Source: Planctomycetales bacterium
GTDB lineage: Bacteria > Planctomycetota > Planctomycetia > Isosphaerales > Isosphaeraceae
Length of the DNA stretch: 55,898 bases
Direction of reading: 5' to 3'
Assembly: GCA_027451885.1 (NCBI GenBank)
Contig: DAIDHX010000088.1
Coordinates: forward strand, 1 to 55,898
Under the pieces are notes generated by a model. It was not told the origin of the DNA and did no database searches. It saw nothing but the letters and a program-made list of their open reading frames with translations. A program made the position numbers and the translations under genes. This document shows, in pieces, positions 18,866 through 25,441 of the stretch; the first letter of the stretch is position 1, and each line of letters opens with the position of its first letter.

Positions 18866-19303
18866 CTACACAGGCGCGGAGAGAATCGCGTACAGTTCGT
18901 CCCTTCGAGTCAACAATTGCTCAAGCGTATATCCGTCGAGCACGCCCAGGAACGCCTGCTGGGCACGCATCAGTACCCGCTTCAGGTCGCACGCACGGGC
19001 GATGGGGCATGTATTCGAGGCCGGGTCAAAACACTCGACCAGGTCAAAGTGCGGCTCCGTTTGCCGTACCAGCCAGCCCACGTTGATCTTCTCAGGCGCC
19101 ATCGCCAGGCGCATCCCCCCTCCACGACCGCGCTGAGCCTCAATGACACGAAGATCCACCAGAGTCCCCGCGACCTTCACCAGGTGATGCCGCGAAATCC
19201 GAAACGCACGCGCAACCTCCTCGACCGAAACCAGCCGGTCGGGATGACACGCCAGATGGAGCACCAACCGCAATCCATAGTCCGAAAACTGGGTCAGATG
19301 CAT
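18866..19303 (-). CDS. nsrR: Rrf2-family regulator of NsrR type (nitric-oxide-sensing Fe-S repressor)
   Basis: 145 residues from the ATG at 19303 (MHLTQFSDYGLRLVLHLA), the typical NsrR opening. The winged helix contains SVEEVARAFRISRHHLVKVAG and QRGRGGGMRLA. Three cysteines, C91, C99 and C105 (CFDPASNTCPIARAC), match the cluster ligands of NsrR, followed by LKRVLMRAQQAFLGVLDGYTLEQL as in that subfamily rather than IscR or RirA. NsrR loses repression when its Fe-S cluster reacts with NO. The gene is divergent from a c-type cytochrome whose promoter region holds an NsrR-like palindrome (19400-19422), the obvious target. Confidence 0.88.
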   Translation of the reverse strand: MHLTQFSDYGLRLVLHLACHPDRLVSVEEVARAFRISRHHLVKVAGTLVDLRVIEAQRGRGGGMRLAMAPEKINVGWLVRQTEPHFDLVECFDPASNTCPIARACDLKRVLMRAQQAFLGVLDGYTLEQLLTRRDELYAILSAPV

Positions 19304-19354
19304 CTCAGCCTCTTGAACTCTTAGATGGGAAACCCGACCCACACCCCCCACAGG

Positions 19355-19392
19355 TTGACAACGCCATCCCAGCAGCTTGACAACGCCATCCC
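19355..19392 (+). repeat. Direct repeat of a 16-bp sequence in the nsrR/cytochrome promoter region
   Basis: TTGACAACGCCATCCC occurs at 19355-19370 and again at 19377-19392, a 22-bp period. Each copy begins with a perfect -35 hexamer TTGACA; only the second has a good -10 at the right distance. Confidence 0.7.
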
Positions 19393-19404
19393 GGCTGTTA
19401 ATAT
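19377..19404 (+). promoter_or_regulatory. Predicted sigma-70-type promoter for the haem c protein
   Basis: TTGACA at 19377-19382, 16-bp spacer, TAATAT at 19399-19404, 93 bp before the ATG at 19497. The -10 overlaps the candidate NsrR operator. Confidence 0.55.
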
Positions 19405-19422
19405 GGATTTTACATACATCTT
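19400..19422 (+). promoter_or_regulatory. Candidate NsrR operator
   Basis: A 23-bp imperfect palindrome. The left half AATATGGATTT (19400-19410) and the reverse complement of the right half, AAGATGTATGT (19422-19412), agree at 8 of 11 positions around a central T. This has the form of known NsrR boxes (AAGATGyATTT half-sites). It overlaps the -10 element, an ideal position for repression, and lies between nsrR and the cytochrome gene. Confidence 0.6.
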
Positions 19423-19496
19423 ACAGGCACGACCATCGCAGGGAAAAGCCGGCCTGCAGGGTTTTGAGGCGTTTCGAGCGAATCCAGGGGCGGCCG

Positions 19497-20813
19497 ATGT
19501 TCACACTCCTGATGAGCGTCATTCGTGGCACCAGGTCCTTGCTCACGATCGCCGGCAGCGGGCTCATCCTGTTGAGCAGCAACACTGCAAACGGCCAAGA
19601 CATCGAGCGTGCGCCCATCCAATATAGCGTGTCGACTCCAAAAAACGAGATCTCTCGTTTGAACGACGCGCTCGGGCGTGGGGAGATCAAGCTCCAGTAC
19701 GAGCCGGAGCATGGATACCTGCGGTCGGTGCTCAAGGCGCTCCAGATACCGGAGTCGACGCAGGTCCTGGTCTTTTCGCGGACGAGTCTTCAGCGCGACC
19801 GGATTGCCCCCCAAACACCACGGGCGATCTACTTTGGCGATGAGGTTCTGGTGGGGTACTGCCAGGATGGACGAGTGATGGAGCTGTCCGCGGCTGATGA
19901 GGTGGTTGGGACGGCTTTCTACACGCTCGACCAATCCAGTGAAGGACCGCCTCGAATCACGAGACAGACGGAAGCCTGCCTGCTTTGCCACGGTTCTTCG
20001 GCAAACCTGGGATTTCCCGGGCACCTCGTGCGTTCGCTGTTCGTGGATGGGAGGGGCGAGCCGATTTTTTCAGCAGGCTCTTATCGGACTGATCAAACGA
20101 GTCCTCTCGAAGAGCGGTGGGGGGGCTGGTATGTGACCGGCAAGAGCGGCAAACAGGCACACATGGGCAACCGCGTTTGTGCAAATGGCCGTCGCCCCAC
20201 GAAGGTTGATCGCAACGACCTGAACGTGCTCGACCTGAGCGATCGGTTCGACGTGCGTCGGTATCTCACGCCGCACAGCGATCTCGTTGCGCTCATGGTT
20301 CTCGAGCATGAAACGGGAATGCTGAACCGGATTGCGCGGGCCTCGCTGGAGACGCGCATGGCACTTTATGAGGAGCGCGAGCTCAACAAGGCGCTCGGCG
20401 TTTCCCGGGACGAGCCCTCGCCTTCGTCGCGGTCACGGATTCGGCACGCGGCGGGCTCTGTTGTCGAGTACATGCTCTTTCGCGAGGAAGCCAAACTCAC
20501 GGAGCCGGTTCGGGGATCGTCGCGTTTCGCCGCGGAATTCACAGCGCGCGGCAAGAAAGACAGCCGCGGGCGTTCGCTCCGTGAATTCGACCTCAAAACT
20601 CGTCTCTTTCGCTATCCCTGCAGTTACCTGATCAATTCGCGGGCCTTTGCCGCGATGCCCGCCGAGCTCAGGTCTCAGGTTTTCCAACGTCTCCGGGAGA
20701 TCCTGAATGGAAATGATTCCGAGCTCAGGGACATGGGCCTTCCCGCAGAGACCCGCGCAGCAATCCGGGAAATCGTGCGCGACACACAAACCGGCCTGCC
20801 GTCTGACTGGTGA
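19497..20813 (+). CDS. Exported c-type haem protein of unknown function, probable NsrR target
   Basis: 438 residues from the ATG at 19497; the frame stays open upstream but that part overlaps the promoter. A hydrophobic N-terminal segment (LLTIAGSGLILLSSNTANGQ) predicts export. A single haem c site, C161-L-L-C164-H165, is followed by GSSANLGFPGHLVRSLFVD. Conserved-looking blocks are ARAIYFGDEVLVGYCQDGRVMEL, WGGWYVTG and HMGNRV; EHETGMLNRIARASLE resembles blocks seen in other uncharacterised cytochromes. It lacks the catalytic features of NorB, NirS or NirK. Gene context (divergent from nsrR, operator on the promoter) suggests a role in nitric oxide or nitrosative stress, which is an inference. 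Confidence 0.75.
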   Translation: MFTLLMSVIRGTRSLLTIAGSGLILLSSNTANGQDIERAPIQYSVSTPKNEISRLNDALGRGEIKLQYEPEHGYLRSVLKALQIPESTQVLVFSRTSLQRDRIAPQTPRAIYFGDEVLVGYCQDGRVMELSAADEVVGTAFYTLDQSSEGPPRITRQTEACLLCHGSSANLGFPGHLVRSLFVDGRGEPIFSAGSYRTDQTSPLEERWGGWYVTGKSGKQAHMGNRVCANGRRPTKVDRNDLNVLDLSDRFDVRRYLTPHSDLVALMVLEHETGMLNRIARASLETRMALYEERELNKALGVSRDEPSPSSRSRIRHAAGSVVEYMLFREEAKLTEPVRGSSRFAAEFTARGKKDSRGRSLREFDLKTRLFRYPCSYLINSRAFAAMPAELRSQVFQRLREILNGNDSELRDMGLPAETRAAIREIVRDTQTGLPSDW

Positions 20814-20844: not shown

Positions 20845-23040
20845 CTAGTGGTGTCCGCCGCCGAAACCGCCACCCATGTGGCCGCCGCCGAAGCCGCCAC
20901 CCATGTGGCCGCCGCCGAAGCCCCCCATGTGGCCGCCGAAGCCGCCGCCGCCCATGTGCACGCCGCCCATGGGTGCGCCTCCCATGTGCATGCCTCCGAT
21001 CGGCGCGCCGCCCATGTGGTATCCCCCCTGGATTCCCCCGATTGAGGGCATGCCACGCGAAACCATGCCGCCGCCCATCCCCGCGCCCGGGTGAATGCCG
21101 CTCGCTCCGGGAGTCACACCCGCACGGCCCATGCCCGCGCCGTTGTAGCCCCCAATGCTGCGCATGGCATTGGCACCGCCCGGATGTGCCCCCATCCCCG
21201 GATGACCCACACCGGCCATCGACCCCCGAGCAAGCGATCCCGTCTGGCCAAGCGCCCCAGCCGCACGGCCATACGCATTTCCTGATCCCGCGGTGTGCGC
21301 AGCAGTCGCGGTATGCGCGGCCATCGCCGCCGTATGGCCCCCGTTGAACGACGGTCGCCAGGACCCGCCACGCGAAGCCAGGCTCGATGTCCGCTGGATC
21401 TGTGCGCCACGCCCCTGCCCAGCCGCGGTTGTGTGCGAGGCCGTGCGCGCCGCGGCATGCGTTGAGAACGGATTGGCATAAGCATGCGAAGCCGGCGGCG
21501 AATTCGCGCCGCGGTGCGCCTGGGCCAGGCTCCCCGCATGGTGAGCGGCCGCCGCGCCAGCGCGATTCGCCAGGTTGCCGCGGTTGACGTTCACATTCCG
21601 ATTGACGTTCACATTCCGGTTGATATTAATATTGCGATTAATGTTGATATTATGATTAGCATATCCCCGATTCCAGCCCCAGTAGCAACGGCCGAAGCCG
21701 CCGTAGTATCCGCCCCAGAACGGGAATCCAAAGCCGAATCCCCCGAACCCAAAACCCCCGAAGCCGAAGCCGAGACCGAGGCCAAAGCCAAACGGGTAAC
21801 CGAAGCCGTAACCGCCAAACGGAAAGCCGTAGCCAAAACCGGAGTAGCCGAAGCCCAGGCCCGGATAGCCGAAGCCGAAGCCCGGATAGCCATAGCCCGC
21901 GGTGATGAATGGATTCACGACCGCGCCGTAGCCGTAGGGATAGCCAAAGCCGCCAATGCCGTAGAACGGCGAGTAACCGCCGAGCCCGAAGCCGAGCGAG
22001 CAGCCCATCACTCCGCCATAGAGACCGGTGTAGCCAAGCCCGTATGCGCCGTAAGGCGCTCCAAGTCCGTAGCCGTAGGAGGACACGGGGGAGGCGTAGT
22101 AGGGATAGCCTGCGCCGCCGTAATACGGATAATCGAGGTAGCCGTAATAACCGTTCAAATAGCCGTATGAAGCATAGCCGTAGTATCGGCCTGAATCGTC
22201 GTAATAGACGCCGGGATAGCCGTCGTAATTGGAATTGGGCCGACCGAAGGCGCCGTTGAGCTGGCCGTAGAGATCGGGAGTGACCTGGGTGTAAGGCTGG
22301 TAGACGGTGTCATTCGACTGCCGGACCGCGGCGGGAACATCGGCGGGTGCGAAGAGCGTGCCGCGGTCATCGAGGGTGCGATCCCAGAAACCTTCCTGGT
22401 AGACCCAGCCGTCCGGCTGGCGAATCCACTGTGCCGGGGTCCAGGCCCAGCCTGGCTGAGCCTTGGTCCAGAAGCCTTTCTTCCAGACAACGCCATCGCC
22501 GTCGGGCGCGTAGTGGCCTGGAACATAGAAACAGCCCTCGCTGGGCGGCTCGCCGGGCTCCTCGGCGGGCGTGTCCTGAGGGGGGCCATTCTTGCGATAA
22601 TCGATGCGATCGGTCTGCCGCGTGCTCCAGAAGCCTGGCACGCGGTACCATCCCTCCTGATCACGCTTCCAGTAGCCGTTCACCCAGAACCGCCCTGGGG
22701 GCGGCACGCGCCAGGCGCCGGTGACCCAGATGAAGTCGCGCTTGCCGGCGTTCCAGTCCCAGTAGCCCTCGACCCACACAGCATCCGGCGAGGGGGGATC
22801 CACACCAGGGCGCTCAGACAGCGGCGAGGGGGGCGCCTTGTCGACGTGGACGGGCAGCCGATCTTTCCGCGGCGACAGAAAAGCCTCGTTGAGCGGACCC
22901 TCGAGCAGCGGCTTGATGCCCGTCTCCGCCCGCGGCGGTTGTTCCGCGCTCGCCAGCGCCGATGCATCCTGAGCCAGAGCTCGGCCGCTCGTCGCACCCG
23001 CAATCAAGAGACCGACACCAAGCCGCAACAGGCTTTTCAT
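20845..23040 (-). CDS. Secreted repeat protein: YxWxxGxW-type repeats, Tyr/Gly-rich centre, Gly/His/Met-rich tail
   Basis: 731 residues from the ATG at 23040 (GGAG 8 nt upstream), with signal peptide LLRLGVGLLIAGATSGRALAQ. Residues about 90-250 contain six to seven repeats of WV/RVxGxW form (WVEGYWDW, WVTGAW, WVNGYWKR, RVPGFW, WKKGFW, YQEGFWD). Residues about 270-470 are a Tyr/Gly/Phe-rich low-complexity stretch (YGYPGFGFGYPGLGFGY). An Asn/Ile/Val/Arg repeat (NININRNININRNVNVNR) follows, then an Ala/His/Ser region and a Gly/Met/His tail (GGHMGGGFGGGHMGGG). Probably an extracellular or cell-surface structural protein; His/Met richness could bind metal, but that is speculation. Confidence 0.72.
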   Translation of the reverse strand: MKSLLRLGVGLLIAGATSGRALAQDASALASAEQPPRAETGIKPLLEGPLNEAFLSPRKDRLPVHVDKAPPSPLSERPGVDPPSPDAVWVEGYWDWNAGKRDFIWVTGAWRVPPPGRFWVNGYWKRDQEGWYRVPGFWSTRQTDRIDYRKNGPPQDTPAEEPGEPPSEGCFYVPGHYAPDGDGVVWKKGFWTKAQPGWAWTPAQWIRQPDGWVYQEGFWDRTLDDRGTLFAPADVPAAVRQSNDTVYQPYTQVTPDLYGQLNGAFGRPNSNYDGYPGVYYDDSGRYYGYASYGYLNGYYGYLDYPYYGGAGYPYYASPVSSYGYGLGAPYGAYGLGYTGLYGGVMGCSLGFGLGGYSPFYGIGGFGYPYGYGAVVNPFITAGYGYPGFGFGYPGLGFGYSGFGYGFPFGGYGFGYPFGFGLGLGFGFGGFGFGGFGFGFPFWGGYYGGFGRCYWGWNRGYANHNININRNININRNVNVNRNVNVNRGNLANRAGAAAAHHAGSLAQAHRGANSPPASHAYANPFSTHAAARTASHTTAAGQGRGAQIQRTSSLASRGGSWRPSFNGGHTAAMAAHTATAAHTAGSGNAYGRAAGALGQTGSLARGSMAGVGHPGMGAHPGGANAMRSIGGYNGAGMGRAGVTPGASGIHPGAGMGGGMVSRGMPSIGGIQGGYHMGGAPIGGMHMGGAPMGGVHMGGGGFGGHMGGFGGGHMGGGFGGGHMGGGFGGGHH
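20866..20965 (-). repeat. Short tandem repeats encoding the GGHMGGGFGGGHM tail
   Basis: Imperfect tandem copies of units such as CACCCATGTGGCCGCCGCCG, in-frame multiples of 3 within the C-terminus of the secreted repeat protein. Confidence 0.6.
21585..21660 (-). repeat. 18-bp-type tandem repeats encoding N-I/V-N-x-N-R units
   Basis: Repeats related to GACGTTCACATTCCGATT (plus strand) that drift into an AT-rich version (GATATTAATATTGCGATT). They form a conspicuous AT-rich islet inside an otherwise GC-rich gene. Confidence 0.6.
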
Positions 23041-23459
23041 CGGAAGCACTCCGCCTTGAGGCGCCGCATCGGAAAAGGGTCCACCCTGTTCCTATTCATT
23101 ACGCCCGCCGAGACCCCTCAGTACAAAAAAAATCCCACAAAGCGAGGCTGGTTCAAACGTCTCGCCACCCCATCCCGCACGGCTCGAATTGCCTCTACGA
23201 CCGGGCTGGCGTTCCAGGCTGGTTGTCGCACTGGAAGCGTATTTCCGCAAATTATAAGACATCCGCCTCCAGCCGTTCCATGGATGCACGATTCTGGCAG
23301 CGGGCCCGCGCTTTGGCGCATGGCGGCGAAATGGCGGTTCGAGTGCAACCGCGTGAGGAGGAATCACAGAGCGGCTTGTGAGGAAACGTACGGCATCTAT
23401 AATTCGAACAGTCCGAACGGTGATCGATCGAGCCCAGCCCCTGAGACGCGTGACCCAAC
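23041..23459. other. Divergent intergenic region
   Basis: 419 bp between the secreted repeat protein and the FHA gene. Locally AT-richer (an A8 run near 23125). No recognisable gene. An ATTATAAGAC patch near 23252 could serve as a -10 but no matching -35 was convincing. Confidence 0.35.
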
Positions 23460-24155: not shown

Positions 24156-24419
24156 TCAGTCATCCGCTCGCGGCCGACGAAGCTCGCGGCGAACCGGCTG
24201 ACCTATTCGATCAATCTGACGCGCGTCGTGCGGATCTAATCGGCTTGCCTGGCGATTCTCACGTTGAATCGCCTCGTAAACCTCCTGCCTGTGCACGGAG
24301 ATCTCGATCGGCGCTGCGATCCCGAGACGTACCTTGTCACCGCGAATATCGACGACAGTGATGACGATGTCGTCACCAATAATGATACTCTCGTCGCGGT
24401 GTCGGGACAGGACTAGCAT
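24156..24419 (-). CDS. csrA: CsrA post-transcriptional regulator
   Basis: 87 residues from the ATG at 24419 (MLVLSRHRDESIIIGDDI), with AAGGAG 10-16 nt upstream. The CsrA core is complete to about residue 60: VITVVDIRGDKVRLGIAAP, then ISVHRQEVYEAIQ. It binds GGA motifs in mRNA leaders to block ribosome access. The tail after residue 60 (ASRLDPHDARQIDRIGQPVRR...) is about 25 residues longer than E. coli CsrA and Arg/Asp-rich. Located 130 bp downstream of fliW, its protein antagonist. Confidence 0.94.
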   Translation of the reverse strand: MLVLSRHRDESIIIGDDIVITVVDIRGDKVRLGIAAPIEISVHRQEVYEAIQRENRQASRLDPHDARQIDRIGQPVRRELRRPRADD

Positions 24420-24549
24420 CGTTTTCGGCTCCTTCCTCCTGCCAGCGAGGCCCGCGACCGTCACTGATCCCAAAGTGAGCGTTTGGCGACAATGGCGGAG
24501 CTGGGGTGGTGAGGCAACATTACGAGTGTATCACACGAGCGGAGGCGAG

Positions 24550-25029
24550 TTACGCCGTGGCTCGTAAAGCGGACGGCCCGGCGAGCAGGACGGGGGAAAC
24601 CGACGTCGAGCTCATGTCGAGCGGGAACCGCACCGGATAGCGGCTGGATGTAAGCACCAACTGCCGGCCGAGGCGTCGGACTGGGTTGATCACAATCGGG
24701 CCCTGGAGATTGACCGACAGGCCGCCCCCCTCTGCTCGATTGAGTATGACATACACAAGTGCGGAGCGCTCGTCATCGAGCTCAAGTGCGGATCGGTCAC
24801 CGGGGCGCAGCTCGATGCGATATTCGCATACCGCGAGCGGAGGCGCAACGAGACCAAACGCAAGCTCTGGAGCAGTCGTACTTTGCAGCCAGGATAGTCC
24901 CCGCGAGACCGGATCGGCGATGTGAACGTAATGGTTGTAGGCGCGAAAGCCAACCAATCCCTCGGGGATGAGGATGACGTCCGATTCGGACGCCTGGATC
25001 AGGCCGAAGCGTGTCGTGAGGATATTCAC
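24550..25029 (-). CDS. fliW: FliW flagellar assembly factor / CsrA antagonist
   Basis: 159 residues. The GTG at 25029 is chosen because it gives VNILTTRFGLIQA and is preceded by a near-perfect Shine-Dalgarno (AAGGAGGTAACC); the open frame continues upstream to 25266 without similarity. Diagnostic blocks: IPEGLVGFRAYNHYVHIAD, AFGLVAPPLAV, ALVYVILNRAEGGGLSVNLQGPIVINP. FliW binds CsrA non-competitively and releases hag/flagellin mRNA; when flagellin accumulates it sequesters FliW. No flagellar structural gene is in this window, so the pair may control other targets. Confidence 0.93.
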   Translation of the reverse strand: MNILTTRFGLIQASESDVILIPEGLVGFRAYNHYVHIADPVSRGLSWLQSTTAPELAFGLVAPPLAVCEYRIELRPGDRSALELDDERSALVYVILNRAEGGGLSVNLQGPIVINPVRRLGRQLVLTSSRYPVRFPLDMSSTSVSPVLLAGPSALRATA

Positions 25030-25441
25030 GTCCTGGTTACCTCCTTGAACGGCGAGCGAGCAAATCGTGTCGGTCGGGCCAAGCAGGCCGCGATCCCAAT
25101 GCCTTCGGAAGTCGGGGCGAACCGCAGGCCGCCCGACCCCAGACGCGGTGGGATCTCGGACCGGGCGCCAAAGCCGCGGGTCCCCGCGATTCAAGCGCCT
25201 GTGACTCGTGCAAGCCAGGCCGACAATTCGGCTCTGGCGAGCCTCGAGCTCGCTCATCCCGCCCATCCGATCGTGCGAGGGAGCGACTGGAACGCGGGTA
25301 TTATCGTCCCCGATTGTGATCCAGGCTCAGTCGCCTAACGGGAGAAATCCTGGCGAGTTGCGCCTCGCGATGCCTGCGCCAATCGCGCCGGTCGCGCCGG
25401 TCGGTCATGCTCCTCGCACGCTCGTTTCAACCCGCACGAGC
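25030..25441. other. Intergenic region upstream of fliW
   Basis: 412 bp without a gene I can support. Apart from the fliW Shine-Dalgarno I see no operator, riboswitch or terminator. Open frames are GC-rich shadows. Confidence 0.35.

Follow-up and report, generated by a model that had tools for sequence, protein, structure and literature searches.

The described system closest to the one analysed here is that of NsrR from Streptomyces coelicolor, an Rrf2 protein with a small regulon. According to the relevant portions of the published accounts, its cluster is ligated by Asp8 and three Cys (PMC5411485), Arg12, Asn97 and Arg60 either contact the DNA or link it to the cluster (PMC5411485, PMC9338935), and its operator is an 11-bp inverted repeat whose AA and TT ends are required and from which binding is abolished by NO (PMC4432287). 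The targets described there are the flavohaemoglobin genes hmpA1 and hmpA2 and nsrR itself, and a haem-protein gene lies beside nsrR. In the proteobacterial NsrR regulons that include norB (Neisseria, Chromobacterium, Burkholderia), a box with the consensus gATGyAT-N5-ATrCATc precedes the NO reductase gene (PMC1274295). NsrR homologues have also been noted in magnetotactic Planctomycetota, in a source whose relevant passage does not give their targets (PMC11014258). A search by title in the open-access literature found no description of an NsrR regulon in Isosphaeraceae.

The window considered here (the whole stretch of DNA analysed, 55,898 nt) carries a minus-strand Rrf2 gene, and divergent from it a plus-strand gene for a haem c protein, hereafter the cytochrome; the intergenic region between them holds a promoter and a 23-bp inverted repeat (Table 1). 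We think it very probable that this locus encodes an NsrR-type repressor whose operator lies over the -10 element and which keeps the cytochrome and a quinol NO reductase (qNOR) in one regulon. This reading draws on what the sequences indicate about the regulator type, the operator, the promoter, their conservation, the operator held in common with qNOR in this genome and the gene units of relatives. The regulator resembles S. coelicolor NsrR in its sequence, predicted cluster ligands, small regulon, operator form and haem-protein neighbour; the targets differ and comprise an unclassified haem c protein, qNOR and, in relatives, a group III truncated haemoglobin (trHb). With the proteobacterial regulons it shares the box before an NO reductase gene; it belongs to another phylum, and the part of PMC1274295 concerned with those regulons names no such haem c protein as a target.

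Table 1. Features of the nsrR/cytochrome region, in window coordinates
Feature	Position	Strand	Remarks
nsrR-type Rrf2 regulator, 145 aa	18866-19303	-	PF02082; divergent from cytochrome gene
Second, upstream copy of the 16 bp around the -35	19355-19370	+	part of a 22-bp tandem repeat; lineage-specific
-35 TTGACA of cytochrome promoter	19377-19382	+	TTGAC kept in 11/11 pairs
-10 TAATAT of cytochrome promoter	19399-19404	+	promoter match and conservation in pairs
NsrR-type operator (putative)	19400-19422	none	23 bp, AA...TT ends, over the -10
Predicted exported single-haem c protein, 438 aa	19497-20813	+	no Pfam family; invariant C161, C164, H165, H222, H271
CLLCH haem-attachment motif (predicted), residues 161-165	19977-19991	+	sole CxxCH

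The regulator contains an Rrf2 domain (112 bits against a cut-off of 30), and its closest solved relative is S. coelicolor NsrR (PDB 5n07, E 5.6e-23). Its start is the ATG at 19303; the listed open reading frame begins further upstream, at GTG 19351. Asp8, Arg12, Arg60, Gly61, Cys91, Asn97, Cys99 and Cys105 are all present, and Asp8 and the three Cys, aligned to the S. coelicolor protein, recur in seven of seven aligned orthologues; the loop from Cys91 to Cys99 exceeds that of S. coelicolor NsrR by two residues. Two observations count against the NsrR reading. The score with the NCBIfam NsrR model NF008240 is 110 bits, below a cut-off of 182 that is a name-assignment threshold and not a biochemical definition, and it lies near the 101.8 bits obtained with the RirA model NF008886 (cut-off 193). 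In addition, Arg35, Arg52, Asp106 and Arg109 stand where most of six aligned relatives have Gly.

The first-pass annotation had described a palindrome of NsrR-box form overlapping the -10 of a near-ideal promoter, with nsrR divergent from the cytochrome gene, and all of this holds. The palindrome, AATATGGATTTTACATACATCTT, is an 11-1-11 inverted repeat with the AA and TT ends of an NsrR operator, in which 8 of 11 pairs are symmetric; since 113 of the 55,876 23-mers of the window are equally symmetric, symmetry alone says little. It is the best match in the window to an E. coli-type consensus (18/22, the runner-up scoring 14), and the only one to come within two mismatches of the published consensus. 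Because a site of this latter grade occurs at least once in 28 of 100 window shuffles, the evidence for the box from a single genome is weak. The promoter TTGACA-N16-TAATAT is the sole match in the window, was found in none of 100 shuffles, and has five of its six -10 bases inside the box.

Conservation makes the evidence for the box strong, weak as it is if read alone. An nsrR orthologue (at least 62% identity) was found in 16 of 45 genomes of the taxonomic family and is divergent from the cytochrome gene in ten of them; the named MAG BP6.bin28 (L095) supplied an eleventh pair, with L094, L096 and L139 left out as duplicates of G411, G429 and G400. The annotation had singled out loss of the palindrome from pairs that stay together as what would speak against its prediction, and we found the box kept in all 11 distinct pairs, in register with TTGAC-N17-TAATATG and between flanks that drift. 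In G418 nsrR is located elsewhere, and the box is still upstream of the cytochrome gene. In a tree of 121 sequences (in which the fragment L054 is unlabelled), the 12 cytochromes that have the box fall into a single clade with a support of 100. The score alone does not separate such sites from others, since five other loci (L015, L020, L025, L031, L052) reach 15/22 with the E. coli-type consensus, the same as the true pairs L037 and L040; the promoter register does separate them. Most cytochromes of the protein family are without nsrR, and universal NsrR control of that family was rejected, the box being confined to one clade. Among 392 genomes of the phylum, the full promoter-plus-box pattern was found in this genome only; no other genome of that set is marked as belonging to the same taxonomic family. 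G394 and G416 have nsrR and the box, with no match to the cytochrome.

The annotation had also reported that the -35 is duplicated with its 16-bp context. The duplication is real: TTGACAACGCCATCCC occurs at 19355-19370 and at 19377-19392, inside a 22-bp tandem repeat (19346-19389). Among the 11 pairs this tandem copy of the -35 is seen in this genome only. The other ten have one -35 in the corresponding stretch, on which ground a conserved dual promoter was rejected; a role for the copy is unsupported.

NsrR targets include NO-detoxification genes, and such genes carry the box here. The pattern AATNTGSATNNNNAATRCANNTT, with at most one mismatch, was searched for in 20 chosen genomes, 16 with nsrR and four without; it was found in 15 of the former and none of the latter (Fisher 0.001), and the reversed pattern in none of the 20. 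The one miss, G416, has a weaker site (14/22) 71 bp upstream of nsrR. The genome studied here has two sites at this stringency, with about 0.02 expected, and the second (contig C243, 6933-6955) lies 257 bp before a gene for a 753-aa qNOR and has its own TTGCAA-N16-TAATAT. A looser pattern, allowing two mismatches, lists two weaker places in this genome as well, C146:56721 and C108:1808. With PF22085 and PF00115, the qNOR combines the cytochrome c-like domain of NorB and the NorB core in one chain; solved qNORs are matched at E 6.8e-241. Counting this genome, there are six (this one, G413, G429, G420, G421 and G422) in which that box stands before a trHb or qNOR gene, trHb being identified by the solved group III globin 2ig3 (E 4.5e-13). 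In G413 a second box lies upstream of the trHb gene; in G429 one lies between an nsrR remnant and trHb-qNOR. The remnant, of a second nsrR, sits beside the intact box and trHb-qNOR at L205 (G429:C4); the operon has apparently broken apart there, with the loss of one copy of the repressor gene. In G420, G421 and G422 the box is located between nsrR and, facing it, trHb and qNOR; the cytochromes of these genomes belong to another branch and have no box.

Behind the box, the genes for cytochrome, group III trHb and qNOR follow one another in the same orientation in G400 (L199), G409 (L202) and G418 (L206), and in G410 the same order was read across two contigs (L054, L214). In G408 (L207, C229) an intact nsrR/cytochrome pair is followed by broken pieces of qNOR, which suggests that the cytochrome outlives qNOR there. 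Outside the taxonomic family, the Pirellulales MAG L127 has the cytochrome and then qNOR about 115 bp apart, and within it the two are divergent in G431. A qNOR (E 1e-60 or better) is found in 24 of the 45 family genomes, several of them without an nsrR orthologue; trHb is found in ten, all among the 16 with nsrR (Fisher 2.5e-6, uncorrected for kinship). This genome gave no trHb match. Since the box precedes trHb and qNOR genes and units of all three genes exist, it is the regulon, in addition to the regulator's name, that ties the system to NO. The predicted tie between an NsrR-type regulator and an uncharacterised cytochrome is supported by the conserved box and by the box and units held in common with qNOR and trHb.

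The cytochrome itself fits the earlier description of an uncharacterised single-haem c protein: it has one CLLCH motif and a hydrophobic stretch at its N-terminus, and no Pfam-A or NCBIfam family scores above its cut-off. At E 0.001, relatives were found in 55 of the 392 phylum genomes and 36 of the 45 family genomes, this genome being in both counts, and a scan of named genomes yielded at least 80 loci, mostly from Planctomycetota and some from Acidobacteriota. In an alignment of 73 whole proteins from the named loci and the window protein, 74 members in all, the five residues listed in Table 1 are invariant. A Pfam scan of these 74 gave a single match (DUF6898, E 0.0039), which was taken as spurious, and none for the window protein; no solved relative was found by sequence, the best hit (E 0.22) being unrelated. 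By these searches the family is one without a Pfam model that is widespread in Planctomycetota and of which one clade only is under predicted NsrR control. At L102, a contig labelled Bacteroidales, the cytochrome groups within Gemmataceae, a planctomycete branch, and this MAG is probably mislabelled or contaminated.

In the mechanism that we propose, the ligands point to a repressor with an NO-sensitive Fe-S cluster, which would bind the 23-bp operator over the cytochrome -10 and so block RNA polymerase. NO would damage the cluster, and the repressor would leave the operator. The haem c protein, presumably exported and loaded with haem, would then be produced together with qNOR and, in relatives, with group III trHb, the co-production being brought about by copies of the operator or by a common transcription unit. 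The cytochrome is probably part of the cell's defence against NO, because in close relatives its gene opens the same operon as the NO reductase; the position of its gene at the head of that operon recommends it as a candidate for a so far unrecognised protein of NO handling. That it is an extracytoplasmic haem protein binding or converting NO, or a product of NO, beside qNOR is a tentative proposal, to which we give somewhat less than even weight. Weighing against the overall explanation are the boxless cytochromes of G420-G422, G394 and G416 with no cytochrome match, the scarcity of nsrR across the protein family and the missing trHb match in this genome.

A more specific form of this explanation, which given NsrR control we consider possible and still rather unlikely, is that the cytochrome is a c'-beta- or P460-like NO trap, or an enzyme converting NO or hydroxylamine, with a helical C-terminal half added. 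The predicted structure (pLDDT 92.6 for the whole protein, 91.1 for the haem domain alone) shows strands and then the CxxCH helix, the order found in P460 and c'-beta. When the haem domain was aligned by VIA-align, P460 ranked second (6hiu, Z 3.6, 3.5 A over 96 residues) and third (2je2, Z 3.6, 4.4 A over 107 residues), and c'-beta with NO ranked sixth (7zqz, Z 3.2, 4.0 A over 94 residues); among the 997 chains aligned, these Z values of 3.2-3.6 are low and tied with those of unrelated chains. Foldseek, run with the whole protein and with the haem domain, returned nothing below 0.001, which is no proof of a new fold. The solved chains have 136-157 residues against 438 here. A haem-crosslinking Lys is a trait of cytochrome P460, and none of the 74 sequences' positions holds an invariant or nearly invariant Lys. 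PF16694 (cytochrome P460) matched 0 of the 74 members at E 0.01, and a sequence link was rejected, hhalign giving a probability of 22% over 21 columns around CxxCH, so that common descent is unsupported. The modelled fold likeness to P460/c'-beta is weak. A link to the Tll0287-like haem c proteins (PF11845), which also have a single CxxCH, was likewise rejected: 11 columns align, and profile similarity ends at the haem motif. As a separate observation, a Tll0287-like CxxCH protein (L203:9586-10113) is encoded after qNOR in this genome, and related proteins are found near the cytochrome in L014 and L021.

Less probable, again given NsrR control, is that the haem protein serves as an electron carrier for a partner enzyme of the operon. 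A single haem c and a gene unit shared with qNOR in relatives would suit such a role; qNOR, however, takes its electrons from quinol and needs no cytochrome c, and a length of 438 aa, together with the invariant His222 and His271, sets the protein apart from a small carrier.

Quite improbable is a reading in which the Rrf2 regulator responds to another signal (iron as in RirA, Fe-S status as in IscR, or redox), the haem protein takes part in this response and qNOR is a coincidental target. The nearly equal RirA and NsrR scores would allow it, as would the presence of other Rrf2 proteins next to the family elsewhere: among the matches listed, 18 of the 80 named loci have in the vicinity of the cytochrome a member of a second Rrf2 subfamily, with a CPLxL...CPLH-like motif (CPLxL...LCPLH) (L105, L106, L107, L110, L111, L116, L124, L126, L127, L130, L138, L140, L146, L152, L157, L165, L171, L172). 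Against it stand an operator that has the NsrR form and AA/TT ends, the presence of Asp8, Asn97 and three Cys that the S. coelicolor protein also has, and the recurrence of qNOR and trHb as targets. Finally, a chance palindrome beside nsrR, conceivable from the 28 shuffles with an equal-grade match, is extremely improbable in view of the box in 11/11 pairs and the second site before qNOR.

The preferred reading, NsrR-type control of cytochrome and qNOR, suggests a function for a haem c family that lacks a Pfam model and proposes an NsrR regulon for Isosphaeraceae. Soils and sediments in which NO and N2O are produced and consumed are rich in planctomycetes. With regulator, operator and target all in hand, the idea is directly testable.

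Of 126 loci, 19 have a TGGA-N5-9-TCCA palindrome in front of the cytochrome, compared with 56 of 2497 control windows, a contrast that is partly one of intergenic against coding DNA because the control windows include coding DNA; together with the second Rrf2 subfamily the palindrome is possibly another regulator-operator pair. Single-domain protoglobins (PF11563, one tested) adjoin the cytochrome at 12-182 bp in 7 of the 80 named loci among the matches listed (L107, L110, L123, L124, L128, L165, L173); a search of this genome, run without a positive control, found none. Rrf2 regulators and gas-binding haem proteins are thus recurrent neighbours of the family, most of whose members lack NsrR. 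With rather less than even confidence, we would suggest that the cytochrome represents a new haem c family which handles NO outside the cytoplasm. Such a family, frequent in Planctomycetota and also found in Acidobacteriota, would recurrently be placed under regulators of the Rrf2 type (NsrR for one clade, the CPLxL...CPLH type elsewhere) and next to group III trHb or protoglobin, and would work alongside qNOR as an NO trap or an NO-converting enzyme. A further family, including L169:1753-2394, lies near the cytochrome in 6 of the 80 named loci among the matches listed; that protein has no Pfam match itself and looks Tll0287-like by eye. In the window, a long Gly/Tyr/His-rich, exported-looking protein without a Pfam family (20845-23049) is encoded convergently with the cytochrome, and two minus-strand genes beyond it (24156-24473 and 24550-25266) encode what we take, by eye, to be CsrA-like and FliW-like proteins.
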